From Azorinus chamasolen (Eukaryota > Mollusca > Bivalvia > Cardiida > Solecurtidae), in the NCBI GenBank assembly GCA_963576725.1, contig OY755241.1:31250853-31314852 (forward strand): a stretch of 64,000 nucleotides of DNA, given 5' to 3'. Numbering within the stretch: the first letter of the stretch is position 1; each line of letters begins with the position of its first letter. Positions 20,201 to 61,179 of the stretch are shown here, in pieces. Under the pieces are notes generated by a model, which worked only from the letters and a program-made list of their open reading frames with translations, was not told the DNA's origin and made no database searches. Made by a program: the position numbers and the translations under genes.

Positions 20201-21147
20201 AAGTATGTTAAAAACAGCCAAGTTTTCAAAATAGTGACCTTGATCCAATTTCATGTGTCCTTGTATCAACTGAAAGGCCTTCACCAAAGCTATCTCCATA
20301 CAATACATGAATTGTCTAGCATATGTGCTTCAGAAGTTAAGACAAAATATTGAAGTTTTTTAATGATGGCCAACTTATCAAAATAGTGACCTTGACCTTG
20401 ACCTAAATTCAAATATCTTTATATCAACTGAAAGGCCTTTTCCAAAGCCATCTGTATACCAAAGATGAATTGCCTAGCATTTGTAGTTCAGAAGTTATAG
20501 CAATGTTAAAGTTTGTTAAAAATGGCAAAGTTTTCGAAATAGTGACCTTGACCTGATTTCACGTATCGTTGTATCAAGTGAAAGGCCTTCACACAAGCTA
20601 TCTGCATACCAAATATAAATTGTCTACCTTAAGTAATTCAGAAGTTATAAGCAATGTTAAAGTTTTGTTAGCGATGACACGCTGTCGGCCGGCCCGCCCG
20701 GTTTTCAGCAAACTATAAGCAGAGATTTTTATTGAAAAAATCCGGCTAAAAAAATAACTGATATTTGTAGCAGTCAACACTTTTTGTAGAGAATTAAATT
20801 GAACACAATGATAGAGTAAGTGAGTTACAGTTTTCTTTCAAGTTTCTTATTTCATTCCACATCTTATGTCATTCCACATCAAAAGGACAAGCTTAAAGTC
20901 AAATCATAGAATTTTCAGAGAAAGCTTCTACACTCACCAGATATTCAAGATGGTCATGCCGTCGTTTGGCTTTCTCACTCTGTTTTCTAAACAATGGCAT
21001 CTTTTTACTAGGCTTCTTCTTCTGTTTGTCTGTCACTGGGGAGGGACCATCTTGGGCGTCTGCTGAGCTGTCGCTGTTGTTTCTGGTCTTGGACGAGACT
21101 GAAGATAGCCGTTTGCCTTGCTTGGCCTTGCTATCCTTCTGGCCCAT
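418..21147 (-). CDS. LRSAM1: LRSAM1, E3 ubiquitin ligase (5' part of gene, 13 exons, runs off left edge)
   Basis: Spliced gene: exons 20938-21166 (ATG at 21145-21147), 19674-19727, 17704-17748, 14534-14611, 13656-13724, 10825-10909, 10127-10291, 8439-8486, 7283-7398, 6288-6317, 3881-4091, 3461-3557, 418-488. All introns are GT-AG and the phases chain without a break, giving 426 codons plus one base. Residues 50-70 (MPLFRKQSEK...) match the family N-terminus. Residues about 80-235 are leucine-rich repeats ending in a family block (VRTLETLVLDTDAMVYPP). Residues about 285-426 are charged coiled coil. Vertebrate LRSAM1 is about 720 residues, so the rest of the coiled coil, PTAP-type motifs, SAM and RING are off-window. 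Family role: cytosolic RING ligase that ubiquitinates TSG101 and acts in endosomal sorting and antibacterial autophagy. Identity rests on remembered family motifs and on the order of all exons. Confidence 0.93.
575..794. mobile_element. TTAA-1 MITE, degenerate
   Basis: Left end ATAACCCTTTACT, right end AATGGGTTAA. The imperfect central palindrome (CAGACAGCTCCTACAAGAACTGTCTAATCAGG region) is diverged. It lies in the LRSAM1 intron upstream of exon 13 and shares its right TTAA with the next element. Confidence 0.65.
791..1019. mobile_element. TTAA-2 MITE
   Basis: TTAA at 791-794 and 1016-1019. The central hairpin has arms GAAACCATTGTGATAA and its complement around GCTCCTATAGGAGC (872-885). Confidence 0.85.
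1047..1293. mobile_element. TTAA-1 MITE, good reference copy
   Basis: Ends TTAACCCTTTCCC and GGGAAAGGGTTAA. Central imperfect palindrome around GCTCCTAGAGGAGC (1113-1126). The TTAA target and CCC/GGG ends are piggyBac-like. There is no coding capacity. Confidence 0.88.
1422..1973. mobile_element. TTAA-1 MITE split by a TA-2 MITE
   Basis: The left part carries AAACAGAGTAGACCCAG and the right part ends AAAGGGTTAA. The TA-2 element at 1546-1863 interrupts it. Confidence 0.6.
1546..1863. mobile_element. TA-2 MITE (pogo/Tigger-like ends)
   Basis: Starts CAGTTGAACTCCGATATCTC and ends with the inverted form, flanked by TA (1544-1545, 1864-1865). Inner palindrome around GCTCCTGCAGGAGC (1713-1726). 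Confidence 0.8.
2225..2562. mobile_element. Two TTAA elements sharing a TTAA (2225-2385 and 2382-2562)
   Basis: The second is a TTAA-1 copy in reverse orientation (palindrome around GCTCCTATAGGAACC, ends CCCTTCCCCTGTTC and GGAAAGGGTTAA). The first is a diverged relative. Confidence 0.65.
2837..3460. repeat. 36-bp minisatellite, about 17 units, abutting LRSAM1 exon 12 donor
   Basis: Unit GAATGGGTGTTACAGAGG plus AAAGTGAGAGAGATTGAG, period 36. It is open in one plus-strand frame only because 36 is divisible by three (12-residue repeat EEWVLQRKVREI). The last unit runs into the exon donor: the first intron bases on the minus strand (GTAACACCCATTCC) are those found in each unit. Confidence 0.95.
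3461..3557 (-). CDS. LRSAM1: LRSAM1 exon 12, coiled coil (residues 371-403)
   Basis: 97 bases, in phase 1 and out phase 2. Acceptor GTCTTACAG, donor AAAG|GTAACA. It continues the coiled coil (VEQNADTLIHRLLNMNVK...). The 36-bp minisatellite begins directly at this exon's donor site. Confidence 0.88.
3669..3790. mobile_element. TTAA-1 MITE, internally deleted
   Basis: TTAA at 3669-3672 and 3787-3790. Only one palindrome arm (GACCCTGATCAGACGGCTCC) is kept. Confidence 0.75.
3881..4091 (-). CDS. LRSAM1: LRSAM1 exon 11, coiled coil (residues 301-371)
   Basis: 211 bases, in phase 0 and out phase 1. Acceptor TACTTTGCAG, donor GCAG|GTAGAT. It encodes a Glu/Gln/Arg-rich helix (ERKRQERIELERSFAEHQ...) with heptad-like hydrophobics, matching the LEFERRLELGQREHTQLL coiled coil of the family. 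Confidence 0.93.
5174..5300. repeat. Fold-back element with long hairpin
   Basis: The arms contain CAATAACATCTGCAGTGTCC and its complement, separated by a CG-rich loop (CCCTCGCCCTTCGGGCTCGG). It would form a stem of roughly 45 bp. Confidence 0.85.
5389..5502. repeat. FB-1 fold-back, copy 1
   Basis: Arms begin CCATGCTTATAA and end TTATAAGCATGG. The stem includes TTAGTTGAGTCTGAG. A second copy lies at 10447-10616. Confidence 0.85.
6288..6317 (-). CDS. LRSAM1: LRSAM1 exon 10, 30-base microexon (residues 291-300)
   Basis: 30 bases, phase 0 at both ends, encoding RSIDDYNSMM. Acceptor ACTTTCAG, donor ATG|GTAAGTA. It is placed by matching phases and by the DYE/DYN position before the coiled coil in the family. 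Confidence 0.75.
6356..6580. mobile_element. TTAA-1 MITE, reverse, degenerate right end
   Basis: Starts TTAATCCTTTACTC; the palindrome arm AAACAGAGCAGACCCTG and its partner are visible. It lies just upstream of the microexon acceptor. Confidence 0.55.
6659..6818. mobile_element. TA-1 MITE, truncated
   Basis: Starts with TA then CAGTAGAACCTCTCATAGGC. It has the family inner block (AGCTGCTTAATGCTGG ... ACCACCTGCCTC) and lacks the right terminal repeat. Confidence 0.65.
6831..6955. repeat. 40-bp tandem repeat, 3 units
   Basis: CCTACCTATTGCACATAGTA recurs at about 6838, 6878 and 6919. Confidence 0.85.
7080..7190. repeat. FB-2 fold-back
   Basis: Arms CCATGTTGTGACCACTCTTT and AAAGAGTGGTCACAACAT around a short loop. 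Relatives at 28640-28735 and 41070-41170. Confidence 0.85.
7283..7398 (-). CDS. LRSAM1: LRSAM1 exon 9 (residues 252-290)
   Basis: 116 bases, in phase 1 and out phase 0. Acceptor TTTGTTAG, donor ATG|GTATGT. It encodes ECGMEYLPPSNFLLNVLDPP, matching ESGLEYYPPSQYLLPIL of the family, followed by a lysine- and serine-rich linker. Confidence 0.92.
7860..8100 (-). pseudogene. Non-LTR retrotransposon relic (C-terminal tail of RT ORF)
   Basis: The minus-strand frame reads RTEQRKGTFSHRVIDLWNSL and then LPNSVV, the typical 'WN-LP' tail after the reverse transcriptase of Jockey/CR1-group LINEs. It is 5'-truncated and has no RT domain. It sits inside LRSAM1 intron 8 in the sense direction. Confidence 0.7.
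8290..8420. mobile_element. TTAA-1 MITE, reverse (right part)
   Basis: Palindrome centred on GGCTCCTAATGGAGCC; right end GGAAAGGGTTAA at 8409-8420, just before exon 8. Confidence 0.75.
8439..8486 (-). CDS. LRSAM1: LRSAM1 exon 8 (residues 236-252)
   Basis: 48 bases, phase 1 at both ends. Acceptor GTTTCAG, donor CAG|GTAAAA. It encodes DVCSSGTEEIMKLLCS, matching the post-repeat EVCGAGTAAILQFLC block of the family. Confidence 0.88.
8815..9102. mobile_element. AGC element (ends ...CAAGAGCCGCATGCGGCT / GACAAGCTAAAA)
   Basis: Starts at an inverted GAGCCGCATGCGGCTC and contains CCAACGCTCGTCTG. It ends CACAATAGCTTCTTCGAAAC then AGACAAGCTAAAAA. A diverged second copy lies at 9702-9897 and a right-end fragment at about 6085-6180. 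Non-coding; class uncertain (Helitron-like is possible, not shown). Confidence 0.6.
9702..9897. mobile_element. AGC element, second copy
   Basis: Shares CCAACGCTCGTCTG near the left and CGACAATAGCTTGTG ... ACAGACGAGCTAAAAA at the right. Confidence 0.55.
9911..10060. mobile_element. TA-1 MITE
   Basis: Terminal repeats CAGTAAAACCTCTCTATAAC and inverted copy, flanked by TA (9909-9910, 10061-10062). Tc1/mariner-like; the centre is shortened and lacks the GCTCCT core. Confidence 0.88.
10127..10291 (-). CDS. LRSAM1: LRSAM1 exon 7, last leucine-rich repeats (residues 181-236)
   Basis: 165 bases, phase 1 at both ends. Acceptor TTTTCCAG, donor AAAG|GTCTGT. It holds NKLRTLP, LDLSDNRVTSIP and the family signature VRTLETLVLDTDAMVYPP, the clearest single piece of evidence for LRSAM1 in the window. 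Confidence 0.95.
10447..10616. repeat. FB-1 fold-back, copy 2, with internal duplication
   Basis: Arms CCATGCTTATAA / TTATAAGCATGG. The segment CAAATCTGACCAATCAAAAG is duplicated in the right arm. Confidence 0.85.
10825..10909 (-). CDS. LRSAM1: LRSAM1 exon 6, leucine-rich repeat (residues 153-181)
   Basis: 85 bases, entering in phase 0 and leaving in phase 1. Acceptor CTTTACAG, donor AAAG|GTATGG. It encodes a repeat VLNLENNKLTRLPDTIG... and the start of the next (TLNVK). Confidence 0.94.
10967..11385. mobile_element. Two TTAA-1 MITEs sharing TTAA at 11206-11209
   Basis: The left copy is diverged. The right copy (11206-11385) is a chimera with two partial palindromes. Confidence 0.6.
11685..11942. 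mobile_element. TTAA-1 MITE, full length
   Basis: TTAA both ends, palindrome arms AAACAGAGTTAACCGAG and GGTCTGCTCTGTTTAC. About 258 bp. Confidence 0.85.
12025..12215. mobile_element. TTAA-2 MITE, truncated at right
   Basis: Hairpin arms ATAAATAGAGCATTTGC / GCAAATGCTCTATTTAT. It breaks off just before the PRL-2 element. Confidence 0.7.
12234..12655. mobile_element. PRL-2 element, copy 1
   Basis: Begins AAAATGTGTCCATGTGACAC GGATGCCCCCGCC. Two tandem cores carry ACAGGAAGTAGATG ... AATGCTTCAGAC. It ends with a (GTACGTA)-type microsatellite and CGTCGCCTAAAGGCGGAGG. The 97-residue plus-strand frame inside it is repeat sequence, not a gene. Second copy at 33351-33738. Confidence 0.75.
13135..13640. 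mobile_element. TTAA-2 (13135-13365) abutting TTAA-1 (13362-13640)
   Basis: The two elements share the TTAA at 13362-13365. TTAA-2 has a perfect core TTTGCTCCTATAGGAGCAAA. The right end of TTAA-1 has lost its GGGTTAA. Confidence 0.8.
13656..13724 (-). CDS. LRSAM1: LRSAM1 exon 5, exactly one leucine-rich repeat (residues 130-152)
   Basis: 69 bases, phase 0 at both ends, encoding one 23-residue repeat (VLDLHNNELKSLPDQIGE...). Acceptor CATTGTAG, donor CAG|GTGGGT. Repeat length and exon length coincide. Confidence 0.94.
13791..13981. mobile_element. TA-1 MITE, second subtype
   Basis: CAGTAAAAACCCTCTAAACT and the inverted end, flanked by TA. Core AACGCTCCTAGAGGAGC. Subtype mate at 28903-29097. 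Confidence 0.85.
14373..14498. mobile_element. TTAA-2 MITE fragment with matched arm changes
   Basis: Hairpin 14373-14442. At 14394 and 14423 both arms differ from the family (C and G in place of G and C), so pairing is kept. Right end GGAGGAAAGGTTTAA. Confidence 0.8.
14534..14611 (-). CDS. LRSAM1: LRSAM1 exon 4 (residues 104-129)
   Basis: 78 bases, phase 0 at both ends. Acceptor CGTTGTAG at 14612, donor AGG|GTGGGT below 14534. It encodes a leucine-rich segment starting VLLLHDNWLNSLF, matching the VLIVHTNHLTSL block of the family. Its acceptor and first 39 or so bases are tandemly copied five more times upstream (see repeat 14577-14972). Only the copy next to the full exon is productive. Confidence 0.9.
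14577..14972. repeat. 66-bp tandem array carrying the exon 4 acceptor, 6 units
   Basis: Period 66 (splice junction copies at 14611, 14677, 14743, 14809, 14875, 14941). Each unit holds, on the minus strand, a pyrimidine tract, ATCGTTGTAG and the first 39 or so exon bases. Both plus-strand frames stay open only because 66 is divisible by three; these are not genes. Confidence 0.95.
15041..15476. mobile_element. Two TTAA-2 MITEs in opposite orientation sharing TTAA 15249-15252
   Basis: First copy 15041-15252 (hairpin decayed), second 15249-15476 (core GCTCCTATAGGAGC intact). Confidence 0.8.
15734..17443. mobile_element. 1.7-kb TIR element with 9-bp flanking repeats
   Basis: Ends CATACATGTGATAA and TTATCACATGTATG. 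Direct repeats AGTGTTGCA at 15727-15735 and 17444-17452 look like a target-site duplication (8-9 bp, hAT-like). CTCCC/GGGAG motifs recur near both ends. The interior has (AC)n at 16884-16916, many GGAATAGAA-type decayed repeats, (TG)n and G20 at 17268-17287. No intact transposase seen. A short Cys-rich frame at 15946-16040 is unidentified. Confidence 0.65.
17704..17748 (-). CDS. LRSAM1: LRSAM1 exon 3 (residues 89-103)
   Basis: 45 bases, phase 0 at both ends. Acceptor CTTGTTTAG, donor GAG|GTATGT. It encodes VPSKVFALCKVLQKE, matching the family block with the CKVLQK core. Confidence 0.9.
17911..18123. mobile_element. TTAA-2 MITE
   Basis: TTAA both ends, core GCTCCTATAGGAGC. A partial TTAA-1 copy lies before it (17470-17660) and another after it (18120-18270). 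Confidence 0.85.
18685..18860. repeat. Imperfect direct duplication, 2 units
   Basis: TGTGCAGGAATATTAATGAG and AAAACTTGAATAAATGTTAA occur twice about 62 bp apart. Confidence 0.8.
18848..19540. mobile_element. Chain of three TTAA MITEs
   Basis: TTAA-1 18848-19100, TTAA-1 19114-19316, TTAA-2 19313-19540 (the last two share one TTAA). Ends and palindromes of all three are recognisable. Confidence 0.82.
19674..19727 (-). CDS. LRSAM1: LRSAM1 exon 2 (residues 71-88)
   Basis: 54 bases, phase 0 at both ends. Acceptor GTATTGCAG, donor GAG|GTAAGA. It encodes AQENPEPIFDISNCELEE, matching the family segment before the first repeat (DISKCEL type). It is too short to appear as a long ORF and was found by splice sites and family match. 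Confidence 0.9.
19935..20690. repeat. About 150-bp tandem array, 5 diverged units, in LRSAM1 intron 1
   Basis: Each unit has AAGTTTTCAAAATAGTGACC TTGACCTGATTTC, then TGTATCAACTGAAAGGCC, CTATCTGCATACCAAAT and TTCAGAAGTTATA. TGACCTTGA (complement TCAAGGTCA) is kept in most units, at about 20083, 20233 (decayed), 20386 and 20541. No coding frame. Confidence 0.88.
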
Positions 21148-32158: not shown

Positions 32159-32499
32159 ATAGCAAATCAAAGCTCAACACATTGGGACCTTGGGACTGAT
32201 CAATGCAGAAAATGACTGTACTGCATTTGCATATAATGTAGACTCTTTATCTGAACTGCTTGTTATTTATAATTTTGGCAAATTTAGGCATTTGATAATT
32301 ATATTAATGGTTAAACCCTTTCTTTCATATATACACTTTTTTGTGCATTTGCAAACAGATAAGTCCCAAAATAAATGGCTCCTATAGAAGCCGTCTGATC
32401 AGGGTCTGCTGTGTTTGCTTGTGAAATTATTGTAGATCTGATTTTACAGTTTCTGCCTAAGACAAAAATAATGTCCTGTGTTCAAATAATATTATAAAC

Positions 32500-33350
32500 T
32501 AGAAAATTGTGTCTGTAAGACACAGTGAAGCCCCCGTGTGGGTGCTTGCCTAGCTGTACGTAAAATTCCTAAGTCATTTGACCTTGACCTTGGGCTTGCG
32601 GGCAGCATGGGCCGGGTGCATAATGAAAGTATGGATGGTGTTGAATGTGCATATGCAATTCCATGCCAATAGCTTTAGTGGCTAGTGAGATATAAGACGA
32701 TGAAAAAAATGTGACAACCAATTGCACTTAAAATTCCTTAGTCATTTGACCTTGACTTTGGGTTTGTGGACAGCATGGGCTGGGTGCCTAATGAAAGTAT
32801 GGATGGTGTTGAATGTGTATATGCAATTCCATGCCAATAGCTATAGCGGTTAGTGAGATATAAGACGATGAAAAAACTGTGACAACCAACTGCACATAAA
32901 ATTCCTAAGTCATTTGACCTTGACCTTGGGCTTGCGGGCAGCATGGATCGGGTGCGTAATGAAAGTATGGATGGTATTTAATATGTATATGCAATTCCAT
33001 ACAAATAGCTACAGTGGTTAGGGAGATATAAGACAATGAAAAAACTGTGACAAAACACTGCATGTAAATGTGACAACCAACTGCACGTAAAATTTCCAAG
33101 TCATTTGACCTCGACCTTGGGCTTGCCGGCAGCATGGGTGGGGTGCCAAATGATAGCACAGATGGTAATTGATGTGTATGTGAAGTTTCATGTGTATAAG
33201 TGTAGAAATTACTGACTTATAACACTTGAAAAACTGTGACATCCAACCGCACTTAAAAGCGTGACAGACGGACTGACAGACAGACAGACGGACTGACAGA
33301 CATGTGCAAAACATAATGCCCCCTGACTATCGTCAACGGGGGCATAATAA
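32500..33350. mobile_element. PRL-1 element, 4 tandem cores of about 170 bp
   Basis: Begins TAGAAAATTGTGTCTGTAAG then ACACAGTGAAGCCCCCGTG. Each core has AAGTCATTTGACCTTGACC TTGGGCTTG and GTATGGATGGT. Ends with a (GACAGACGGACT)n microsatellite (33261-33300) and ATCGTCAACGGGGGCATAA. Non-coding. Confidence 0.82.
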
Positions 33351-33738
33351 AGAAAACGTGTCCATGGGACACAGATGCCCCCGCCGACAAACAGGAAGTA
33401 CATGTAGATGAACGACAGACCTGAAAAGGGGAGATACAGTACATCTTACTATGATTAAGCTTCAGACCAAATATCAAATCATTGCAGCTTACACAAGCGA
33501 AGAAATCTTTGATGAACATTTTTACAGGAAGTAGATGGACAACAGACCTGAAAAGGGGAGACACAATACAACTCACTATGGTAATGCTTCAGACCAAATT
33601 TCAAATCATTCCACCTTACACAAGCCAAGAAATCCTTGACAAAAATTTCGGACGTATGTACGTATGTACAGACAGATGGACTGGACGGACAAGGGTAAAA
33701 CTTAATGCCCCCATCGCCTAAAGGCGGGGGCATAAAAA
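33351..33738. mobile_element. PRL-2 element, copy 2
   Basis: Same ends as 12234-12655 (GTGTCCATGGGACACAGATG ... CGCCTAAAGGCGGGGGCATA) with two AACAGGAAGTAGATG-type cores. Confidence 0.8.
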
Positions 33739-33959: not shown

Positions 33960-34470
33960 AAACTAGAAAATTGTGTCTGTAAGACACAGTGATGCCCCCG
34001 TGTAGGTGCTTCCCTAGATGCATGTAAAATTTCCAAGTCATTTGACATTGACCTTGGGCTTGCGGGCAGCAATGACTGGGCTGGGTGTACAATGAAAGTA
34101 TGGATGGTGTTTAATGTGTATATGCAATTCCATGGCAATAGCTACAGTGGTTAGGGAGATATAAGACAATGAAAAAAATGTGACAAAACACTGCACGTAA
34201 ATGTGACAACCAACTGAACGTAAAATTTCCAAGTCATTTTATCTTGACCTTGGGCTTGCGGGCAGCATGGGTGTGGTGCCATATGATAGCACAGATGGTA
34301 ATTGATGTGTATGTGAAGTTTCATGTGTATAAGTGTAGACATTACTGACTTATAACACTTGAAAAACTGTGACAACCAACTGCACCTAAATGCGTGACAG
34401 ACGGACAGTCAGACGGATGGACATGTGCAAAACATAAAGCCCCCAGACTATCGTCAACGGGGCATAATAA
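33960..34470. mobile_element. PRL-1 element, copy 2, 2 cores, inside another TTAA-1
   Basis: Same ends as 32500-33350. The host TTAA-1 copy spans about 33810-34536 and is interrupted after CCATTATAAACTAG, the same interior position as in the first case. Confidence 0.78.
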
Positions 34471-42069: not shown

Positions 42070-43036
42070 TTAAACCCTTTACTCCATGAATATTCATGTA
42101 AAAAATATTGACGCCATGAATATCTATTTGAATAATTGTTATTATACATATTGGCAGTGACAGAAACTATAGAATCATATCTATAGTATATCATAAGCAA
42201 ACTGAGCAGATCCTAATCAGACGACTCCTACAGATATGGGTCTACTCTATTTGCAAAGGCGTAGAAAGGCGTATTTATGGAGCAAAGGGTTAACTACCTC
42301 CAATTCCACCATCAGTTAACGGGGAAACAAGGCTCACCATCAGTTAAAGGGAAACAAGGCTCATCAGATGCAAAGGGAGAAGCGGCTAACAATAGAAGTT
42401 ATAATGTAAACAATTCAGAGAATGTGCCGTTTGAGCTACTTGAATGAATGAATGAATTGAATTGAATTGGAAGATGAATCAGAAGAGACTATTACAATTT
42501 GTCAGATGCGCTCTATTGCAATGTTCAGAGTATCATTAACCCTTTCCCTGTTCTATGTATATTCCAAATTTCCGTACCATATTCATGGGCAAAATAGTTA
42601 TAATGAAATATGGAAGGTGGAATATTGTAGCTATTTTAGAAAGTAAAGAAACAGATTTATCAAATTCCATCAGCAAACAGAGCAGACCCTGATCAGACGG
42701 CTCCTCTAGGATCTGGGTCTACTCTGTTTGCAAATGCGTGAAAACACATTTATATGAGAGAAAGGGTTAACACTGTATCAGATACATATTAACCTTTTCC
42801 CGCATAGAAACGTGTTGTCATGCATTTGCAAACAGTAGACCCAGATCAGACGGCTCCTAGAGGAGCCGTCTGATCAGGGTCTACTTTGTTTGCTAATATA
42901 ATTTGAAAGATCTATGTCTTCACTTTCTAAAATGGCTATAATGTACCACCTTCCACATTTCATTATAGCTATTTTGTTAATGAATATTCAGTAGGTATTG
43001 AAATTTGAAATAAACACAGAACAGGGAAAGGGTTAA
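42070..43036. mobile_element. Three TTAA-1 MITEs (42070-42293, 42536-42770, 42789-43036)
   Basis: All have TTAA at both ends; the second is reversed. The third abuts the gypsy protease directly, so it marks the present left end of the retroelement. Confidence 0.85.
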
Positions 43037-43040
43037 AGCA

Positions 43041-43469
43041 GTGATAGATACAGCCGCGAAAGTGTCTATAATCCCAGATAGGCTGTATAGTAGTATGGAA
43101 AACAAACCCACAATACTAAGGACAGTCACCTTGAACACAGCCGGACGTGAAATGAAGATGAGGGGATTTGTTGTTGGCCCGGTAGAAATTCGGCTTGGAA
43201 ATAAGATGTTCAGAGAAAATGTGTATGTAGCACCGATAGAAGATAACATGTTGCTAGGGATTGATCGTATGAAGAAGTGGGAAGTAGCTATAAACATCAG
43301 GGAAGTCAAGCTTACATTGGCTGATGAAGACATTATAGTAGAATTTGGAGACCCATCGAAAGAAGCAAGAGTCACTAGGATGACTGTTAAAAGGAAAGAA
43401 GTGAAGTATCAGTGGAGTATCAGGTTTTCGCACAGGACGAGTTTGATCTTGGAAACTTCACTGCTTTAA
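43041..43469 (+). pseudogene. Gypsy protease domain
   Basis: 142-codon frame. DTAAKVSIIP at its start resembles the retropepsin DTGA motif with Gly changed to Ala. VAPIEDNMLLGIDRMKKW matches the downstream 'LLGxDxL' block. The catalytic motif change suggests an inactive enzyme or a diverged lineage. Confidence 0.8.
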
Positions 43470-46599: not shown

Positions 46600-47700
46600 G
46601 TGGTTGACATCTGGGGTAGAACCAACTGAAGATATCATGATGTTGTTGGGACCCGTCGGAAAGTACCTGTAGATTAACAGAGATTTTTATTCTGGAGGAT
46701 TGTTTATTGTGGAGAAAGGCTTGCTAGTGATCCCTGGCAAGATGAGAGACCAAATATTCAAGCTAGAACATGATGTACCCTCCTCGGGGCATCAGGGGGT
46801 CCATAGGACCAAGTAATTAATAAAGGCCAAATACTACTGGTATGGGATGTAAAAAGATGTCGCCAGAAATGTACAAGCATGTGAGGTCTGTAACCATAGC
46901 AAGAAGGCAACCAGGAAAGCAAAATTTTGGATGACAGTGTTCCATGCGGGTTTGCCTATGGAAAAAGTGCACATAGATTTCCTTGGACCGTTACCGAAAA
47001 CACCAAATGGCAACGAGCACGTTCTTGTGATCGAAAACACCAAAATGGCAACGAGCACATTCTTGTGATCGAAAACACCAAAATGGCAACGAGCACATTC
47101 TTGTGATCGAAAACACCAAAATGGCAACGAGCACATTCTTGTGATCGAAAACACCAAAATGGCAACGAGCACATTCTTGTGATCGAAAACACCAAAATGG
47201 CAACGAGCACATTCTTGTGATCGAAAACACCAAAATGGCAACGAGCACATTCTTGTGATCGAAAACACCAAAATGGCAACGAGCACATTCTTGTGATCGA
47301 AAACACCAAAATGGCAACGAGCACATTCTTGTGATCGAAAACACCAAAATGGCAACGAGCACATTCTTGTGATGGTAGACCAGTTCACTAAGTGGGTAGA
47401 ATGTATTCCATTGCCGTCGCAAACCGCCAAGGTGACAGCTAGGGTGGCAGTTAATGAATTCTTCTCCAGGTTTGGCTACCCATTTCAGTTACACTCTGAC
47501 CAAGGCAGAAACTTTGTAAAAGTAAGCTTTTAGCCAAAGTGTGTGAGCTGCTTCAAATACATAAGGCAAGAACTACACCATACCGACTCTCAGGAAACAG
47601 ACAGGTCGAGAGATACAATCAGACATTTATAGACACGGTACGATGCTACAAAGGAAATAACCAAAACTAGTGGGATAAATTCCTACCATAGATAGCAGGA
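46600..47700 (+). pseudogene. Gypsy integrase (zinc-binding and catalytic core), broken
   Basis: The zinc-binding part is visible as SSGHQGVHRT ... QACEVCNHSKKA (H2C2). The core shows HIDFLGPLPKTPNGNEHVLV, then after the tandem array MVDQFTKWVECIPLP and LHSDQGRNFV. A third block, in another frame, reads SGNRQVERYNQTF and would carry the catalytic Glu. Several stops and frameshifts. Confidence 0.85.
46993..47373. repeat. 38-bp tandem array, about 10 units, inside the integrase core
   Basis: Unit CGAAAACACCAAAATGGCAA plus CGAGCACATTCTTGTGAT. The unit derives from the integrase codons for KTPNGNEHVLV. Since 38 is not a multiple of three, each unit shifts frame on the plus strand. Three overlapping minus-strand frames stay open through the array but are repeat artefacts. 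Confidence 0.95.
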
Positions 47701-47779: not shown

Positions 47780-47992
47780 ATGAATCAGGATAGAAAGGAG
47801 TGTGAGAACTATGTGACAGACTTAGAATGTGCCATAACCAAAGCCCATGAGATTACCAGGACAAAACTGAAATCAAACCTGAAGCGTATGAAAAAGGATC
47901 ACGATGTAAAGGTATTAGAGAAGTCATACTACAAACGTGACGTGGTCCTTATACTGGATTCAAGCACACCCAAAGGAAAACCAAGAAATTGA
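47780..47992 (+). pseudogene. Gypsy integrase C-terminal region, part 1
   Basis: KLKSNLKRMKKDHDVKV and YKRDVVLIL resemble the 'QK.YYD.......GD.V' segment before the integrase C-terminal barrel. It overlaps the next frame by 4 bases (ATGA), possibly a decay frameshift. Confidence 0.7.
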
Positions 47993-48360
47993 CAAAGCCA
48001 TGGAAGGGGCCAGGCGTCATAGTAAAGAAATTGTCGCCCTTCCTTTATAGGTTACAGCTGCGGAACAAAATCTTCATGGCAAATCATGATAAATTGAAGA
48101 TCTGCCTTGACTGTGAACTGCCTACTTGGCTGATTAAAAAACGGGAATATGGACTAATGGTGAAGCAAGAAAGCATCATATATTGCATATGCAGAACGCC
48201 AGATACTGGGGAGTTTATGATCCAGTGTGATAACTGTATGGAATGGTACCATAGAAATTGTGTCCTGAAGGTGAAAATAACATCCAAAGAGGCGGAGGCG
48301 ATACAGAAGTACAGTTGTCCATTGTGCAAAGTTAGCCCAGTTTTTGCAGCAGCTAATTAA
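47989..48360 (+). CDS. Gypsy integrase C-terminal domain with PHD finger (123 codons)
   Basis: Residues 1-40 are the integrase C-terminal barrel (KPWKGPGVIVKKLSPFLYRL ... ANHDKLKIC). Residues 65-113 are a C4HC3 PHD finger: Cys66, Cys68, Cys80, Cys83, His88, Cys91, Cys110, Cys113, with RFMI-like GEFMIQCDNC and Trp86 in the aromatic-cage position, similar in style to BPTF/KDM7-type fingers that read H3K4me3. It ends in a natural stop 11 residues after the last Cys. Family knowledge: several gypsy lineages carry a chromodomain here to steer integration; a PHD finger would be an alternative chromatin reader. Function is inference, and the rest of the element is dead. Confidence 0.85.
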   Translation: MTKPWKGPGVIVKKLSPFLYRLQLRNKIFMANHDKLKICLDCELPTWLIKKREYGLMVKQESIIYCICRTPDTGEFMIQCDNCMEWYHRNCVLKVKITSKEAEAIQKYSCPLCKVSPVFAAAN

Positions 48361-51617: not shown

Positions 51618-54115
51618 GTCGTTTCGTCGAGTGTAGGGTGATTCCCCCATAGGGTGATTCCCCCATAGGATGATTCCCCTATGGGCAATTGCCCCTTAGG
51701 ATAATAACCCTTTAGGATTATTGCCCCATAGGGTGACTGCCCCTCAATATAAAAAATATATCATTATTTTGTAAAAAAAAATAATATATAAGTAAAATTT
51801 AATAAATTATATGATGAAAATAAATTAGTAGAAGGCTGTGTAGACCAATTGGAACTGTTGTATGTATTGTATTGATTCCAAATATTTGGACATGTAAACC
51901 TGAAGAAAGGGCATAATCCCCATTAGAAAGTACACACTAAGAAAATTTTTGTACAACTTAAATGAAGAATTAATAATTCTTTAATCCCTTTGCCTGCTAA
52001 GTGCAACCTAACTGGTATTTGCTAACAGTTTGGATCCTGATTAGGCGCTGATTAAGATAGCGTCTCATCACAATGCAAGCTGTATGATCAGTCATTAGTC
52101 TCTCAAAAGCGTACACAAAACGAAAGTAAGAGAAAATGGTGACAGGTCACTGCTATAAGGGTTAATAGGAGCTACACTGTGGTTTGTATGTCCAAATTAA
52201 AAGAGTAATAAATTAAGATTCTGTTTCATTTCGGGACACTGTATAGAAATATCAACAGCAATAAATAAAAGTTAATTGATTTTATTTTCTTGCATACACT
52301 CAATGCATTTTGTTATAATATTTCATAATAATATTATATTATTTTTAATATTATATTAATGAATATTCATGACAAAGCTTTCTGATCAGTTTCTGTTCTG
52401 TTTGCTCAATGACAATAAATATTCATTAGGTAAAGCACATCATTGTAAGATAATGTAATACATTATACCAGCACATATGGCATATATTGTATTTATAAGC
52501 ATAAATTGTATGACCACCTAAAGCTATATAATCTGGGTCTACCCTGTTTGCTCAATGTCAGACAATAAAGAGTCATTAGCTAAAGATAATGTAATACTAG
52601 CACATATAAATAGCTAAAGGTCATGTAATACTGTAATACTAGCACATGTGGTATATTTAACAAGCATAAATTGTACGAACAAACATTTCTAATTCCTTCT
52701 CATCGAAACAGATTAGACCCAAAACAAATTTAAAGCTATATGATCTGGATCTACCCTGTTTGCTCAATGTCAGATAATAAAGAGTCATTAGCTAAAGATA
52801 ATGTAATACTAGCACATAAAGTATATTAAACAAGCATAAAATGTACGAACAAACATTTCTAATTCCTTCTCATCGAAACAGATTAGACCTAAAAAAATTT
52901 TTAAAGCTATATGATCTGGATCTACCCTGTTTGCTCAATGTCAGATAATAAAAAGTCATTAGCTAAAGATAATGTAATACTAGCACATAAAGTATATTAA
53001 AGTCATTAGCTAAAGATAATGTAATACTGTAATACTAGCATATAAAGTATATTAAACAAGCCTAAATTGTATGAACAAACATTTCTAATTCCTTCTCATC
53101 GAAACAGATTAGACCCAAAACAAAATTAAAGCTATATGATCTGGATCTACCCTGTTTGCTCAATGTCAGATAATAAAGAGTCATTAGCTAAAGATAATGT
53201 AATACTAGCATATAAAGTATATTAAACAAGCATAAAATGTACGAACAAACATTTCTAATTCCTTCTCATCGAAACAGATTAGACCCAAAACAAATTTAAA
53301 GCTATATGATCTGGATCTACCCTGTTTGCTCAATGTCAGATAATAAAGAGTCATTAGCTAAAGATAATGTAATACTAGCACATAAAGTATATTAAACAAG
53401 CATAAAATGTACGAACAAACATTTCTAATTCCTTCTCATCGAAACAGATTAGACCTAAAAAAAAAATTAAAGCTATATGATCTGGATCTACCCTGTTTGC
53501 TCAATGTCAGATAATAAAAAGTCATTAGCTAAAGATAATGTAATACTAGCACATAAAGTATATTAAAGTCATTAGCTAAAGACAATGTAATACTGTAATA
53601 CTAGCACATATGGTATATTAAACAAGCCTAAATTGTATGAACAAACATTTCTAATTCCTTCTCATCGAAACAGATTAGACCCAAAACAAAATTAAAGCTA
53701 TATGATCTGGATCTACCCTGTTTGCTCAATGTCAGATAATAAAGGGTCATTAGCTAAAGATAATGTAATACTAGCATATAAAGTATATTAAACAAGCATA
53801 AAATGTACGAACAAACATTTCTAATTCCTTCTCATCAAAACAGATTAGACCCAAAACAAATTTAAAGCTATATGATCTGGATTACCTGTTAAAATTATAT
53901 GGCATTTAGCCTTCAAAAACATCAAATAATTTTATAATATAAAAAAAGAAAAGTAAAAACACTTTTTAGAGATTTTTAATAACCATGGGGGAATTGCCCC
54001 GTTTGGCAGTTTTATTGCGGGGCAGTCATCCAGGGGGCAATCATCCAGGGGGGAATAGTCCTATGGGGTAATCACCCTATGGGGAAGTTGTCCGTACCCC
54101 CGTTTCGTCGACCTT
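51618..54115. mobile_element. Composite element: satellite enclosed by inverted CCCC/GGGG repeat blocks
   Basis: Left block 51640-51750 repeats GATTCCCCCATAGG and ATTGCCCC. Right block 53980-54100 is its rough inverse (GGGGCAATCATCCAG, GGGGTAATCACCCTATGG). CGTTTCGTCGA occurs just outside each (51621-51631 and about 54101-54111) as a possible 11-bp target-site duplication. The satellite at 52530-53890 fills the centre. Confidence 0.6.
52530..53890. repeat. About 171-bp satellite with 566-bp higher-order unit
   Basis: TTTGCTCAATGTCA starts at 52547, 52759, 52930, 53155, 53325, 53496, 53721: spacings 212, 171, 225, 170, 171, 225. The 225-bp units hold an extra AGTCATTAGCTAAAGATAAT block. The pattern 225+170+171 repeats. 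The GATCTGGATCTACCCTGTTTG part resembles the TTAA-1 palindrome arm. Confidence 0.9.
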
Positions 54116-55998: not shown

Positions 55999-57498
55999 CT
56001 ATTTAATAAAGAAGTTATTGCGGGTCCCCAGTCTTGGTAAAGCAGGAGGGATTAGATATGAATCGGTTTTGTGTTCTTCTTTTTCTTCCTTTGACTGGCC
56101 GCCTTCGTCGTGCCGAATACTCTGCCAGTTGTGCGCAATAACAACCCCCCTTCCCATTGATATTTTTGAATAGCCTTTTTTTGTCAGATTTGCTTTGTGA
56201 CACCTGAGATTTAAATATCTCAAGCGACTTTGCTTCTGCGATGTTTTGTGGTAGTGCATTCCAGTCTTTAATAGTTTGGTAGAAGAATGACCATTTCCTG
56301 GAATCTGTTCTTGATGTTTGCACTGCATAACTATGGGGTTGTGCATATCTAGTAGGTTTTTTAAGTATTTATCTGGATTTGTTTCTACTAAGTTGTTGAT
56401 TATTTTGTAAAACATAGACAGTCTGGCTTCCTTTCTTCTTGTTTTAAGGTCTTTCCATTTGAGTATGTTCAGCATTTCCCCTACACTGGATCTGTTTCTA
56501 TGTTTGCCCATGACGTATCTTGCGCTGCGTCTTTGAATTTTGTCTAATTTATCTATATGTGTTTTCTTGTATGGGTCCCATACAGTGCAGGCATATTCTA
56601 GTTGGGGTCTTACTAAAGTGAGGTATGCCTTTTCTTTTATGTTTTGTGAGGAGATGTGTAAATTTCTATGCAGGAAGCCTAGTGTTCTGTTGGCTTTGTT
56701 TGTTATGTTGTTTATATGTTCTCCCCAGTCCAAGTTGTCTGTGATAGTGCAACCAAGGTATTTTGTGGACTTTTCATGAGCGAGAGCGCTTCCGTGTAAG
56801 CGATAGTTATGGCGTATGGCGTTTTTCTTTTTCGTCACAGATAATACCGAGCATTTATTGGGATGGAATTCCATTTTCCATTTGTCTCCCCATTCCGCCA
56901 ACCTGTCCAAGTCTTCCTGTAGTACATGGCAGTCAACCTTTGAGGCTACAGTCAAATAGGCAATAGTGTCGTCTGCAAACAGTCTGACAGTGGAGCTCAG
57001 GCCTCTCGGCAGGTCGTTAATGTAAAACAGAAACAGACTGGGTCCAAGTACCGAGCCTTGGGGTACCCCAGAATCAACTGTTTCCGTGTCAGACTCTTCG
57101 CCTTCGACCGCGACAACCTGGGTTCTGCCAGTTAGAAAAGCCTTAATCCATTGGAGAGTTTTACCTTTTATGCCATAATGGTTTAACTTGTGAAGAAGGA
57201 GTGAATGTGATACTTTATCAAAAGCTTTTGAAAAATCGAGTATTAACAGATCTGTTTGGTTTCCCTCTTCGAGATTTTTAGATAGATCATCTATACATTC
57301 TACAAGCTGTGTTTCGCAGGAACGTTTACTGCGGAATCCATGTTGCAGAGGGTAGAGTATCTTATTTACTTCCGCGTGCCTCATCAGATGACCGGTGATG
57401 ATGTGTTCCATTAGTTTACAACACACACAGGTCAGCGAAATGGGTCGATAATTTTCTGCTTGGTATTTCTGTCCTTTTTTGAACGCTGGTTTTGTGTT
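55999..57498 (-). pseudogene. Non-LTR retrotransposon ORF2, RT domain, one frameshift
   Basis: The minus-strand frame of 475 codons (57426 to 55999), with in-frame RT sequence upstream to about 57498 (PAFKKGQKYQAENYRPISLT). RT blocks: YPLQHGFRSKRSCETQL, LDFSKAFDKVSHSLLL, GVPQGSVLGPSLFLFYINDL, RLFADDTIAY (catalytic FADD present), KYLGCTITDNLDW, VRPQLEYACTVWDP. Near the C4 run at 56336-56339 the frame changes; the expected tail (FFYQTIKDWNALPQN) is in the 56015-56323 frame. The endonuclease and ORF1 are missing (5' truncation), so it is a dead copy but a fairly young one. Jockey/CR1-like group. Confidence 0.92.
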
Positions 57499-58242
57499 TA
57501 CTCTGTTTGCAACACATTTATATGAGGCAAAGGGTTAACTATTTCTGGAAATTGTGTATGTATGAATATGCACTTACTGAATGAATAAAGTTTAATTTAA
57601 CACCATTGTTATCATTTTGAAATTACTAGCCTATGCTAACAGAGTAGATCAAAATCAGGCAGCTGATTGATCAAGATACACTCTGTCATAAAATTAAAAT
57701 GTGCAGTTTTCCGTTGAAGCAGAGTACCAGATTAACTGAATCGTTTATAGAATACGCCAGCAAAAATCTATCAGAAATAGTAGGGAAACAACTTGTGAAA
57801 AAGTGGTTTGGCAAGCTATGTGCGAAAGTGCGAATGTCATGACTATCTAAATCTCACGCCAACACAATTTCTAATTTAGAACACGGTTGGAAAATATCCC
57901 ATTTTAAACGTTTACATCGCATAGTTTTACATAAAAAATTCTTATAAACATTTAGAATGACTTTACCAACTAATATTGAGAATAACCCTACTGTATTAAC
58001 CACAGTAACCCGACATTTATCGAGTTGGCTTTGTTGACTCTAGGTCGACGAGTGTCGGCGTCTTTCCGTTGCTATAATTCGGGTTTTAAATGCAATCTAA
58101 GGCAATCTTTCGAATATTTAAATATTTTTATTCATTTATGACAGCATAATATTACTATATATGGCTGTTTATATATAAATAATGCCCTAAAACGCCTTTT
58201 TAAGTTAGTTGTCTCTAGTTGACACTTGTTGTCTCTGTTTAG
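57499..58242. other. TTAA-1 right half, then sequence without visible features
   Basis: CTCTGTTTGCAACACATTTA to AAAGGGTTAAC (57503-57540) is the far half of the TTAA-1 copy into which the LINE inserted. The rest shows no gene. Confidence 0.5.
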
Positions 58243-58482: not shown

Positions 58483-58564
58483 CCACCGCCATGTATTGAT
58501 AAATCGCAATTTCTTGAAATTAACGATATGACTTGTATATAACCATAATATATTGTATATAGTG

Positions 58565-58720
58565 TGCGAAACGACCATGGGAGCGAAACGATCAGGTACA
58601 AAACGTCCTGGAAGAGAAACGTCCAGGACGCGAACTGGTTAATGGGCGAAACGACTATGGGGCGAAACGACCAGGTACAAAACGTCCTGGGAGCGAACTG
58701 GTTAATGGGCGAAACGTCTG
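58565..58720. repeat. Degenerate GGGCGAAACGACC-type repeat block
   Basis: Variants such as GGAGCGAAACGATC, GGGGCGAAACGACC and CGTCCTGGGAGCGAACTGG follow one another, with two larger copies of ACGTCCTGG...GAACTGGTTAATGGGCGAAAC about 75 bp apart. Related in style to the blocks flanking 51640-54100. Confidence 0.75.
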
Positions 58721-59061
58721 GTCACCAAGATCAATGAATTTAGTATCACATTCTCATTTCTCAGACTTGACTTTAAATATTTTTTTCTGACAAAGGTGGT
58801 AAACTAGGATGACTTTGATCAAAGAAAACATTCAACCAGAGACATATATGTCTCTGATTCAACACTGTGCTATTTATTTATTTGCTCTCGGAAACAAGTC
58901 AAACCGGCCTCCAAAAAGTCAAACAGGACCTGAATTTGGTACAATTTACTACATATATGACAATCAAAGCACTGAAAGTGCTGCTAGCAAGGGGCTTTTA
59001 GCAAAGACGGTTGTATTGGTGTTACAAAGTGCTGATTTCTTCCGAAGCATTTTTGTTCAGG

Positions 59062-59132: not shown

Positions 59133-59210
59133 ACGATGCGATAGTGTGTATATAAAGGCTTGTTCAATTGGTTACACCATATAGATTGTTGAATAAGTTA
59201 GAGTTATTAT

Positions 59211-61160
59211 ACCCCCCTTTTGAAAAAATGGGGGTATATTGCTTTGCACATGTCGGTCGGTCGGTCTGTCGGTCGGTCGGTCGGTCGGTAGATCGATGGT
59301 TTCCGAACGATAACTAATAAACGACTTGGCCTAGAATCTTCAAACTTGCTGTGGTGGTTGGTCATGATAAGTAGATGACCCCTATTGTTTTTGAGGTCAA
59401 AGGTCAAGGTCACCATGACCTAAAATGGTGAAATAGTTTCCGATCAATAACTGCTCAATGGTTTGGTTTGGGATCTTCAAACTTGCTGTGGTGGTTGGTC
59501 ATGACCACTAGATGACCCCTATTGATTTTGAGGTCACTAGGTCAAAGGTCAAGGTCACCATGACCTTAAATGGTTAAATGGTTTCCGATCAATAACTGCT
59601 CAAGGGTTTAGCTTAGAATCTTCACACTTGCTGTGGTAGTTGGTCATGACCACTGGATGACCCCTATTGATTTTGAGGTCACTAGATCAAAGGTCAAGGT
59701 CACCATGACCTTAACTGGTAAAATGGTTTCTGATCAATAACTGCTCAAGGGGTTGGCTTAGGATCTTCAAATTTGCTTAGGTGGTTGGTCATGACAACTA
59801 AATGAGTCCTATTGTTTTTTAGGTCACTAGGTCAAAGGTCAAGGTCACCATGACCTTAAAGGGTGAAATGGTTTGCGATCAATAACTGCTCAAGGGTTTG
59901 GCCTAGGATCTTCAAATTTGCTGTGGTGGTTGGTAATGACCACTAGATGACCCCTATTGTTTTTTAGGTCACTAGGTCAAAGGTCAAGGTCACCATGCTC
60001 TTAACTGGTCAAATGGTTTCCAAATCAATAACTGCTCAAGGGTTTGGCTTAGAATCTTCAAACTTGCTGCGGTAGTTGATCATGACAACTGGATGACCCC
60101 TATTGTATTTGAGGTCACTAGGTCAAAGGTCAAGGTCACCATGACCTTAACTTGTAAAATGGTTTCTGATCAATAACTGCTCAAGGGTTTGGCTTAGGAT
60201 CTTCAAATTTGCTTAGGTGGTTGGTCATGACAACTAGATGAGCCCTATTGGTTTTTAGGTCACTAGGTCAAAGGTCAAGGTCACCATGACCCTAACTAGT
60301 AAAATGGTTTCTGATCAATAACTGCTCAAGGGGTTGGCTTAGGATCTTCAAATTTGCTTAGGTGGTTGGTCATGACAACTAAATGAGTCCTATTGGTTTT
60401 TAGGTCACTAGGTCAAAGGTCAAGGTCACCATGACCTTAAAGGGTGAAATGGTTTGCGATCAATAACTGCTCAAGGGTTTGGCCTAGGATCTTCAAATAT
60501 GCTGTGGTGGTTGGTAATGACCACTAGATGACCCCTACTGTTTTTTTAGGTCACTAGGTCAAAGGTCAAGGTCACCATGCTCTTAACTGGTCAAATGGTT
60601 TCCAAATCAATAACTGCTCAAGGGTTTGGCTTAGAATCTTCAAACTTGCTGCGGTAGTTGATCATGACAACTGGATGACCCCTATTGTATTTGAGGTCAC
60701 TAGGTCAAAGTCACCATAACCTTAACTTGTAAAATGGTTTCTGATCAATAACTGCTCAAGGGTTTGGCTTAGGATCTTCAAATTTGCTTAGGTGGTTGGT
60801 CATGACAACTAGATGAGCCCTATTGTTTTTTAGGTCACTAGGTCAAAGGTCAAGGTCACCATGACCTTAACTGGTGAAATGGTTTGCGATCAATAACTGC
60901 TCAAGGGTTTGGCTTAGGATCTTCAATGTTGCTGTGGTGGTTGGTCATGACCAATAGATAACCCCTATTATTTTTTAGGTCACTAGGTCAAAGGTCAAGG
61001 TCACCATGACCTTAACTGGTGAAATGGTTTGCGATCAAGAACTGCTCAAGGGTTTGGCTTAGGTTCTTCAAACTTGCTGTGGTGGTTGGTCATGACAACT
61101 AGATGACCTCTATAGTTGAGGTCACTAGATCAAAGGTTCGGGGGTCTGGGGGTATACATG
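59211..61160. mobile_element. PRL-4 tandem-core element with 145-bp units bearing AGGTCA clusters
   Basis: Left end ATACCCCCCTTTTG...GGGGGTATATTGC with (GTCG)n microsatellite (59251-59288); right end GGGGTCTGGGGGTATACATG. Between them are about 12 units of 145 bp. A full unit has AGGTCA-CT-AGGTCA-A-AGGTCA immediately followed by AGGTCACCATGACCT (e.g. 59531-59566), and many also carry GGTCATGACC. Non-coding. Confidence 0.9.
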
Positions 61161-61179
61161 TTTTACAAACATCTCTTGT

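Follow-up and report, generated by a model that had tools for sequence, protein, structure and literature searches.

Does anything keep a cluster of nuclear-receptor-type half-sites intact in the units of a tandem array, and if so, at what level does it act? The question is raised by a locus in the bivalve Azorinus chamasolen, within a 64,000-nt stretch of one contig (the whole of which we call the window), where 145-bp units each hold several copies of the half-site AGGTCA. A first-pass annotation had read the array as mobile and multimerised, either enhancer-like or receptor-sequestering, and had placed its emphasis on a perfect estrogen response element (ERE).

A receptor-site array and the element that carries it

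The array (12.8 copies of the unit, 87% matches by TRF) holds eight exact copies of the IR3 AGGTCACCATGACCT, starting at 59407, 59552, 59697, 59842, 60133, 60423, 60853, and 60998. These are all of the exact sites named by the first-pass annotation, and all eight agree with the ERE palindrome AGGTCAnnnTGACCT. The decayed copies were also found where it had put them, with two changes at 59987 and 60569, one change at 60278, and a further copy near 60710. The IR0 GGTCATGACC had been described as present in many units, which overstates it: 13 places in the array lie within two changes of it, and only three of them match exactly. The entire 36-bp composite, hereafter the core, is exact in six units, starting at 59531, 59821, 60112, 60402, 60832, and 60977. 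Outside the array, AGGTCAAGGTCA and TGACCTTGACCT would be expected about 0.004 times each in the window and were counted 0 and 6 times, respectively, and the six TGACCTTGACCT matches all lie within two other tandem arrays of the window. The units show half-site gains and losses of 6 to 8 bp, and units u06 to u09 are a copy of u02 to u05, a higher-order duplication of four units and ∼581 bp.

Table 1. Positions of the elements, arrays, and subfeatures discussed in the text, numbered within the window
Feature	Positions	Strand	Description
Element A, whole	59205–61178	+	Non-autonomous Helentron (HINE) of family A; ends accurate to ∼3 bases
5' palindromic subTIR and IR of A	59208–59238	+	TATACCCCCCTTTT / AAAATGGGGGTATA; 14-nt arms, 93% complementary, 3 nt between them
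Microsatellite of A	59252–59289	+	GTCG tetranucleotide (TRF)
Central array of A	59296–61137	+	SatDNA-like, with 4-unit higher-order duplication (TRF and unit comparison)
Intact core	59531–59566	+	36 bp, AGGTCA-CT-AGGTCA-A-AGGTCA-AGGTCA-CCA-TGACCT (DR2, DR1, DR0, IR3); includes TCAAGGTCA
3' subTIR of A	61148–61156	+	GGGGGTATA, inverted copy of 5' TATACCCCC
3' stem-loop of A	61158–61172	+	ATGTTT-TAC-AAACAT; the element ends (CTCTTG, then TT) ∼6 bases further on; same region in other copies
Search pattern for ends of A			TATACCCCCN{5,20}GGGGGTATA
Element B	32499–33350	−	HINE of family B; CCCAAGGTCAAGGTCAAATGAC in units of 168 bp
Element D	33351–33738	−	HINE of family D; units of 127 bp that lack the AGGTCA core; directly adjoins B
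Element C	33963–34468	−	HINE of the same family as B; short array, cores decayed
Array E	19941–20670	−	Family E; 152-bp tandem units with AGGTCAAGGTCAC core; HINE ends not recognised

The array forms the middle of a larger element that has the anatomy of a HINE (Table 1). Subterminal repeats lie near both ends, a stem-loop is found close to the 3' end, and the microsatellite and central repeats keep the same order and strand from copy to copy; this arrangement was seen in 17 of 18 copies, since the left flank read for the remaining one (L031) stops short of the microsatellite. The ends are common to all 18 copies examined. By reading, insertion was between T bases in T-rich DNA: TT precedes ATACCCC on the left in 18/18 copies, and TT follows CTCTTG or CTCTCG on the right in 17/18, with TA in L055. 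No target-site duplication was seen by eye at the ends of the 18 copies, and element A has no stop-to-stop ORF of at least 120 aa, as expected of a HINE without coding capacity. In all 18 elements the final unit of the array is broken off inside the core, and the truncated core adjoins the 3' subTIR, so the core lies at a junction. The feature in the window is an individual copy of a HINE that is abundant in this genome and has a short satellite-like array in its middle. The 18 elements with the same ends bear out the earlier description of the array as mobile and multimerised. Short repeats of the GCGAAACGwCC type lie dispersed just to the left of the element (58560 to 58740).

The window holds further elements of this kind. 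Besides A, TRF reported four arrays with a period above 100 (B, D, E, and one at 52611 to 53792), two of which, B and E, bear the core; both were encountered without any motif search. The left flank of A is homologous to that of B (80% over 60 nt, E=2.8e-9) and similar to that of C (76% over 50 nt), and the units of A and B have nothing detectable in common except the core. Elements D and B meet exactly at TT (33345 to 33351), as if one HINE had inserted at the end of another. Retroelements are also present. A long reverse transcriptase ORF (55999 to 57534, minus strand; PF00078, E=1.3e-37) probably belongs to a non-LTR retrotransposon. Elsewhere, retroelement ORFs that include an aspartyl protease (43014 to 43469) are followed downstream by a C-terminal piece with a PHD finger (47941 to 48360, plus strand; PF00628, E=3.9e-9), which is possibly the chromatin-targeting module of an LTR retrotransposon integrase; the same region contains a 38-bp minisatellite of ten copies with 99% matches (46995 to 47373; TRF). 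Rfam gave no match, and a scan for bacterial-type promoters performed about as chance would (6 found, 4.5 expected).

Genome-wide, exact matches to the 36-bp composite number 15,450 (7504 + 7946) in the 1.72-Gb, 137-contig assembly, compared to 0 for a backwards control. We also drew a blind sample of twenty 10-kb stretches, whose round coordinates on contigs C1 to C10 were fixed beforehand (4,619 N). These 200 kb contain 32 array rows with a period of at least 90. A half-site cluster is present in six rows from five elements, which by eye fall into family A (three) and a new HINE family, G (two). The two strands of the sample together hold 274 copies of AGGTCA, up to 188 of them within the six cluster rows, two of which overlap. 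The other 26 rows have at most one half-site each, and element D, also a HINE, lacks the core; the core is therefore not needed by such arrays generally.

Variation in the core and the level of constraint

The test named by the first-pass annotation is to compare the AGGTCA positions with the rest of the unit. The window array alone is poor evidence for this and was set aside: among its 11 complete units, variable columns (gaps counted) number 12/36 in the core and 35/109 elsewhere (p=1). When the four higher-order copies are taken out, the seven units left give 4/36 and 33/109 (p=0.027), or 4/30 and 33/115 for the half-sites alone (p=0.10). A 16-column invariant run is also present outside the core in this array. 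We used 156 units from 18 family A elements, 14 of which had been found through an exact core, and, separately, the 25 units of the three family A elements of the blind sample. Slices outside 120 to 160 bp (family A) or 100 to 200 bp (family G) were dropped before counting. Alignments centred on the core, as used for E, Glo, and B among the families compared below, can inflate variation at the edges; those of A and G were redone start-to-start.

In the 156 units, the mean minor-allele fraction is 0.022 in the core versus 0.091 in the rest (MWU p=0.0018), and the core is the lowest of all 145 circular 36-column windows, a rank that it keeps when one exact unit is removed from each of the 14 core-ascertained elements. 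The blind units agree: the fraction is 0.026 in the 36 core columns and 0.097 in the other 109 (p=0.0005), a contrast that persists without CpG columns (p=0.0019). Only 2 of the 145 circular windows are at or below the core in this set, and the lowest begins at the core's first base. Other summaries are less clear. Per-element consensus sequences from eight elements show no significant difference (variable columns 0/36 in the core versus 8/109 in the rest, p=0.20), and gaps are commoner in the core among 58 units (0.0077 versus 0.0019) and rarer there in the blind units (0.0011 versus 0.0044). The outcome of the comparison supports the earlier reading on this point: the AGGTCA direct-repeat cluster is the least variable part of the 145-bp unit.

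Within the core, conservation is uneven. Half-sites 1 to 4 have minor-allele fractions of 0.010, 0.022, 0.013, and 0.011, the 27 direct-repeat columns together have 0.014 (p=0.0003), and the spacers CT and A between direct repeats are conserved too (0.020 and 0.007). The fifth, inverted half-site is less conserved (0.045). The right arm of the IR3 with its CCA spacer, at 0.047 versus 0.091 for the rest, is not significantly more conserved in the 156 units (p=0.83), and the IR3 is intact in 103 of them. The conserved part is thus the direct repeats and not the estrogen palindrome. In B, E, G, Glo, and Bb158, the other families that bear the core, the consensus unit contains no such IR3 either. 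The emphasis that had been placed on the ERE is not supported by these results, and the array is best read as something other than an estrogen-receptor array.

Conservation could be maintained in the resident copies or in the lineage that transposes, and comparing private with shared variants is a direct way to ask which. Within the blind set, alleles confined to a single element have about the same density in core and rest (0.50 versus 0.52 per column; 76 of 145 windows at or below). Alleles found in two or more elements are almost missing from the core (0.028 versus 0.450 per column; 1 of 145 windows at or below). As counts, there are 18 private and 1 shared in the core and 57 private and 49 shared in the rest (Fisher p=0.0006). 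The same count shows no contrast in the other 15 elements (shared to private 18:19 in the core and 95:83 in the rest, p=0.72) or in all 18 (22:23 and 116:80, p=0.24); recurrent mutation among more elements may blur the contrast in the larger set. A contrast does appear under a stricter measure of old variants, their copy number. In the other 15 elements, alleles with at least eight copies stand to singletons as 3:17 in the core and 51:80 in the rest (p=0.045), and as 0:13 in the 27 direct-repeat columns (p=0.004). For all 18 elements, the counts of singletons and of alleles with at least eight copies are 21:3 in the core and 78:53 in the rest (p=0.01), and among alleles with at least 15 copies none is in the core and 39 are outside it. 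For singletons in the 18 elements, 12 of the 145 windows are as low as the core or lower, a slight deficit in the core that is gone (54/145) after correction for ascertainment by dropping one exact unit from each of 14 elements.

In all, these counts support a McDonald-Kreitman-like reading, from few elements, in which new mutations land freely on resident cores and rarely reach high copy number. The small blind sample indicates that constraint acts on the spreading lineage and not on resident copies. Free private variation combined with a scarcity of high-copy variants is more easily reconciled with a function that serves the element, or with erasure by exchange, than with a role of the residents for the host.

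It is tempting to attribute host function to so many perfect EREs and DR1, DR2, and DR0 sites, whether as enhancers or as a sponge for the estrogen receptor or other receptors, kept by selection on resident copies. A precedent exists in the Alu DR2 elements that are bound by RAR in cells (PMC1785376, as far as the parts consulted go). This was also the first-pass reading, and it sits badly with the equal frequency of private mutations in and outside the core of the blind copies, with the unconserved right arm of the IR3, and with the lack of that palindrome in the other core-bearing units. We consider it very unlikely.

Conservation without any protein reader has to be taken more seriously. 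The core could be an old box whose short direct repeats convert or slip, or are a preferred place of exchange, such that variants are erased. The 6- to 8-bp changes in half-site number, the position of the core at the broken end of the last unit, and the higher-order duplication, which records exchange between units, are all as such a process would leave them, and the shared/private contrast is missing from the other 15 elements. However, erasure among hexamers does not readily account for conserved spacers that are not hexamers alongside a fifth half-site that is less conserved, nor for private changes that were not erased from the core in the blind set. Neutral conservation of this sort remains a serious competitor, if on balance an unlikely one, and further evidence on both of its sides comes from other repeat families.

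The core in unrelated and related repeat families

Apart from the arrays of the window and the blind sample, we scanned contigs of prokaryote genomes with the 19-mer AGGTCAAAGGTCAAGGTCA, which gave 11 loci. Three were used (L001, L002, and L007). Seven were left out because they were judged bacterial by title, G+C, and local context (L003, L004, L006, L008, L009, L010, and L011), as was L005, a single copy at a contig end with no array. Loci L001 and L002, from a GTDB “Bacteroidetes” metagenome-assembled genome (Glo_2), contain a HINE-like element with units of ∼147 bp in DNA that is animal-like by eye. L007, from a Bathymodiolus gill symbiont assembly, contains a 158-bp array with HINE-type ends, placed by eye, on the other strand. 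These three loci were ascertained via the motif, so the presence of the motif there proves nothing and it is the setting that counts. The animal-type HINE and other repeats of L001 and L002 are likely host contamination in a reference genome, and the HINE-like element at L007:4949-5382, with its half-site core inverted relative to a backbone related to that of family G, is probably host contamination as well. A viral or plasmid origin was also considered and rejected: the 19-mer has 0 matches in viral contigs, phages and plasmids gave no match, and the 13 viral loci returned by a spaced pattern are, by eye, Gly-Gln-like repeats.

The extended half-site TCAAGGTCA is common to the consensus units of A, B, E, Glo, Bb158, and also G; two of the five units other than that of A came to light through the motif. 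Once the half-sites are masked, 12 of the 15 family pairs are without similarity in the strict scheme and 13 in the permissive one. Families E and G are clearly related outside the core (0/300 shuffles). The backbones of G and Bb158 are related (p=0.003 permissive, 0.02 strict) and by eye lie in the same element orientation, but their cores are on opposite strands. A and Bb158 match (p=0.03) through a run of T and in the strict scheme only. An inverted core on a related backbone is as can be expected of a site for a protein that reads double-stranded DNA. The relatedness of E and G means that part of the sharing of the core is descent, a point in favour of neutral conservation, whereas the core as the only detectable feature common to the units of A and B speaks against it.

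Low variability of the core is also found beyond family A, to differing degrees. The number of windows at or below the core is 4/118 for Glo (15 units, MWU p=3e-5), 2/125 for G (22 units, p=0.12), and 1/140 for E (5 units, p=0.10); family B fails the test (33/117, 6 units). The ranks of A (2/145), B, E, G, and Glo combine to p=8e-5, which is indicative, given that units within families are not independent.

The period of core-bearing units runs from ∼137 to 169 bp, so the proposed link between 145 bp and the length of a nucleosome core is weak. A nucleosome-phasing satellite with incidental half-sites would account for the period of family A, which is near core-particle length. It would be harder to square with the range of periods seen here or with the 138- to 181-bp consensus units given for Cg_HINE in the sections covered of PMC7492417, and it leaves the conservation of the core unexplained. 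We regard it as hardly probable.

Iterons occur near rolling-circle origins. The core could likewise be an iteron-like site, read by the element's trans-acting Rep/helicase or by another non-receptor factor in rolling-circle copying. The truncated last core beside the 3' subTIR in every element is placed as such a site might be, and constraint on the spreading lineage in the blind set agrees with such a role. Against this, HINE D has no core, the core of Bb158 is inverted relative to its backbone, and the core fits a known receptor monomer site exactly. An iteron seems improbable to us, less so than host enhancers or phased nucleosomes.

Candidate readers of the core and known systems

Element A itself is an ordinary HINE. 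What is new is the conserved core of the TCAAGGTCA type, which the spreading lineage appears to keep. In the portions of the literature we drew on, the ERR site is given as TNAAGGTCA with C preferred at N, and an ERR dimer can bind an extended half-site embedded in an IR3 (PMC5476932); the NR5A2 monomer site is TCAAGG(C/T)CA, bound also in SINE B1 (PMC11102866). The half-site TCAAGGTCA, of this ERR/NR5A monomer type, is present in A, B, E, Glo, Bb158, and G, and TCAAGGTCACCATGACCT of family A is laid out like the ERR-bound extended half-site in an IR3 (PMC5476932). The oyster has 43 nuclear receptors, including an ER homolog without estrogen binding and an ERR homolog in which such binding is unlikely, and FTZ-F1 is discussed for oyster in the same source (PMC4070562, covered in part). 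Among changes in half-sites 1 to 4, 6/51 stay within RGKTCA, about the 2 in 18 of a random draw, so they do not follow the degeneracy that a receptor would tolerate; many of these changes are rare and probably young, which leaves this comparison little power. The core-less HINE D likewise counts against a receptor as the reader.

We put forward, as a tentative reading not far below an even chance, a selfish HINE with a protein-binding box that is maintained by its lineage, perhaps as a docking site for orphan nuclear receptors. Mobility would come from a Helentron Rep/helicase acting in trans, in line with descriptions of the HINE class, and unequal exchange or slippage would lengthen and shorten the array. 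The core would be a candidate docking site for host orphan receptors of the ERR and NR5A/FTZ-F1 type. Receptors docked in the germ line or early embryo would cause the chromatin of the element to be opened or transcribed and would thereby make its copying more likely, and most new lineages would then descend from copies whose core is intact. Individual inserted copies, as the small blind sample indicates, would let the core decay like any other sequence. A broader proposal is more doubtful, and we offer it as a possibility: that a HINE lineage of bivalves, and possibly of other marine animals, parasitises orphan receptors of the host germ line or early embryo through TCAAGGTCA in every unit, with the box kept or gained anew on either strand as the rest of the repeat turns over, and with selection acting only in the transposing copies.

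Much of this anatomy is familiar from known elements. In the parts of PMC7492417 covered, the Cg_HINE elements of Crassostrea gigas and the Pearl family share with A a 5' subTIR and IR, a GTCY-type microsatellite, a 3' subTIR and palindrome, a T-rich target, and central repeats (of the lengths given above) in fixed orientation to the flanks. Receptor half-sites and conservation by level are not described in those sections; boxed low-variability segments common to some clusters are, and these, known to us by description, may include the core of A. The same may be true of one of the two conserved motifs that the BIV160 and Cg170 satellites have in common, again known by description (PMC5139131, in part). 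Much oyster satellite DNA resembles the central repeats of Helitron-like elements (PMC11136912, in part). DINE-1/HINE elements have palindromic subTIRs, a 3' stem-loop, central repeats, microsatellites, TT insertion, and no coding capacity, like A; unlike A, AGGTCA arrays are not mentioned in the parts covered of PMC4067079. Full-text literature searches on receptor half-sites together with satellites, Helitrons, or molluscs found, in titles and abstracts among the matches listed, no report of this feature.

Other mobile repeats are known to spread receptor sites or regulatory sites, as seen in the parts of each source covered. Alu elements have spread >100,000 AGGTCA-type direct repeats, some of them bound by RAR in cells (PMC1785376). 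Alu is a SINE whose DR2 sites arise mostly via CpG decay, whereas A carries clusters of sites every 145 bp in a rolling-circle element. Mouse SINE B1 carries the NR5A2 monomer site and is targeted in zygotic genome activation; there, binding was measured, whereas here it is inferred, and both element class and phylum differ (PMC11102866). The ISX helitron of Drosophila miranda is a rolling-circle element that spreads binding sites for a regulatory complex, as proposed for A (PMC4384637). Resident copies of ISX were selected for host dosage compensation, in contrast to the residents of A, which decay in the blind sample.

The comparisons made here single out one box within the unit and show how private and shared variants can be used to ask whether a resident copy or a transposing lineage is under constraint. 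If receptors read the core, the genome of A. chamasolen would hold >15,000 exact composite receptor sites. If this is true, their number would be large enough to affect work on receptor occupancy and on endocrine disruption in animals of this kind.
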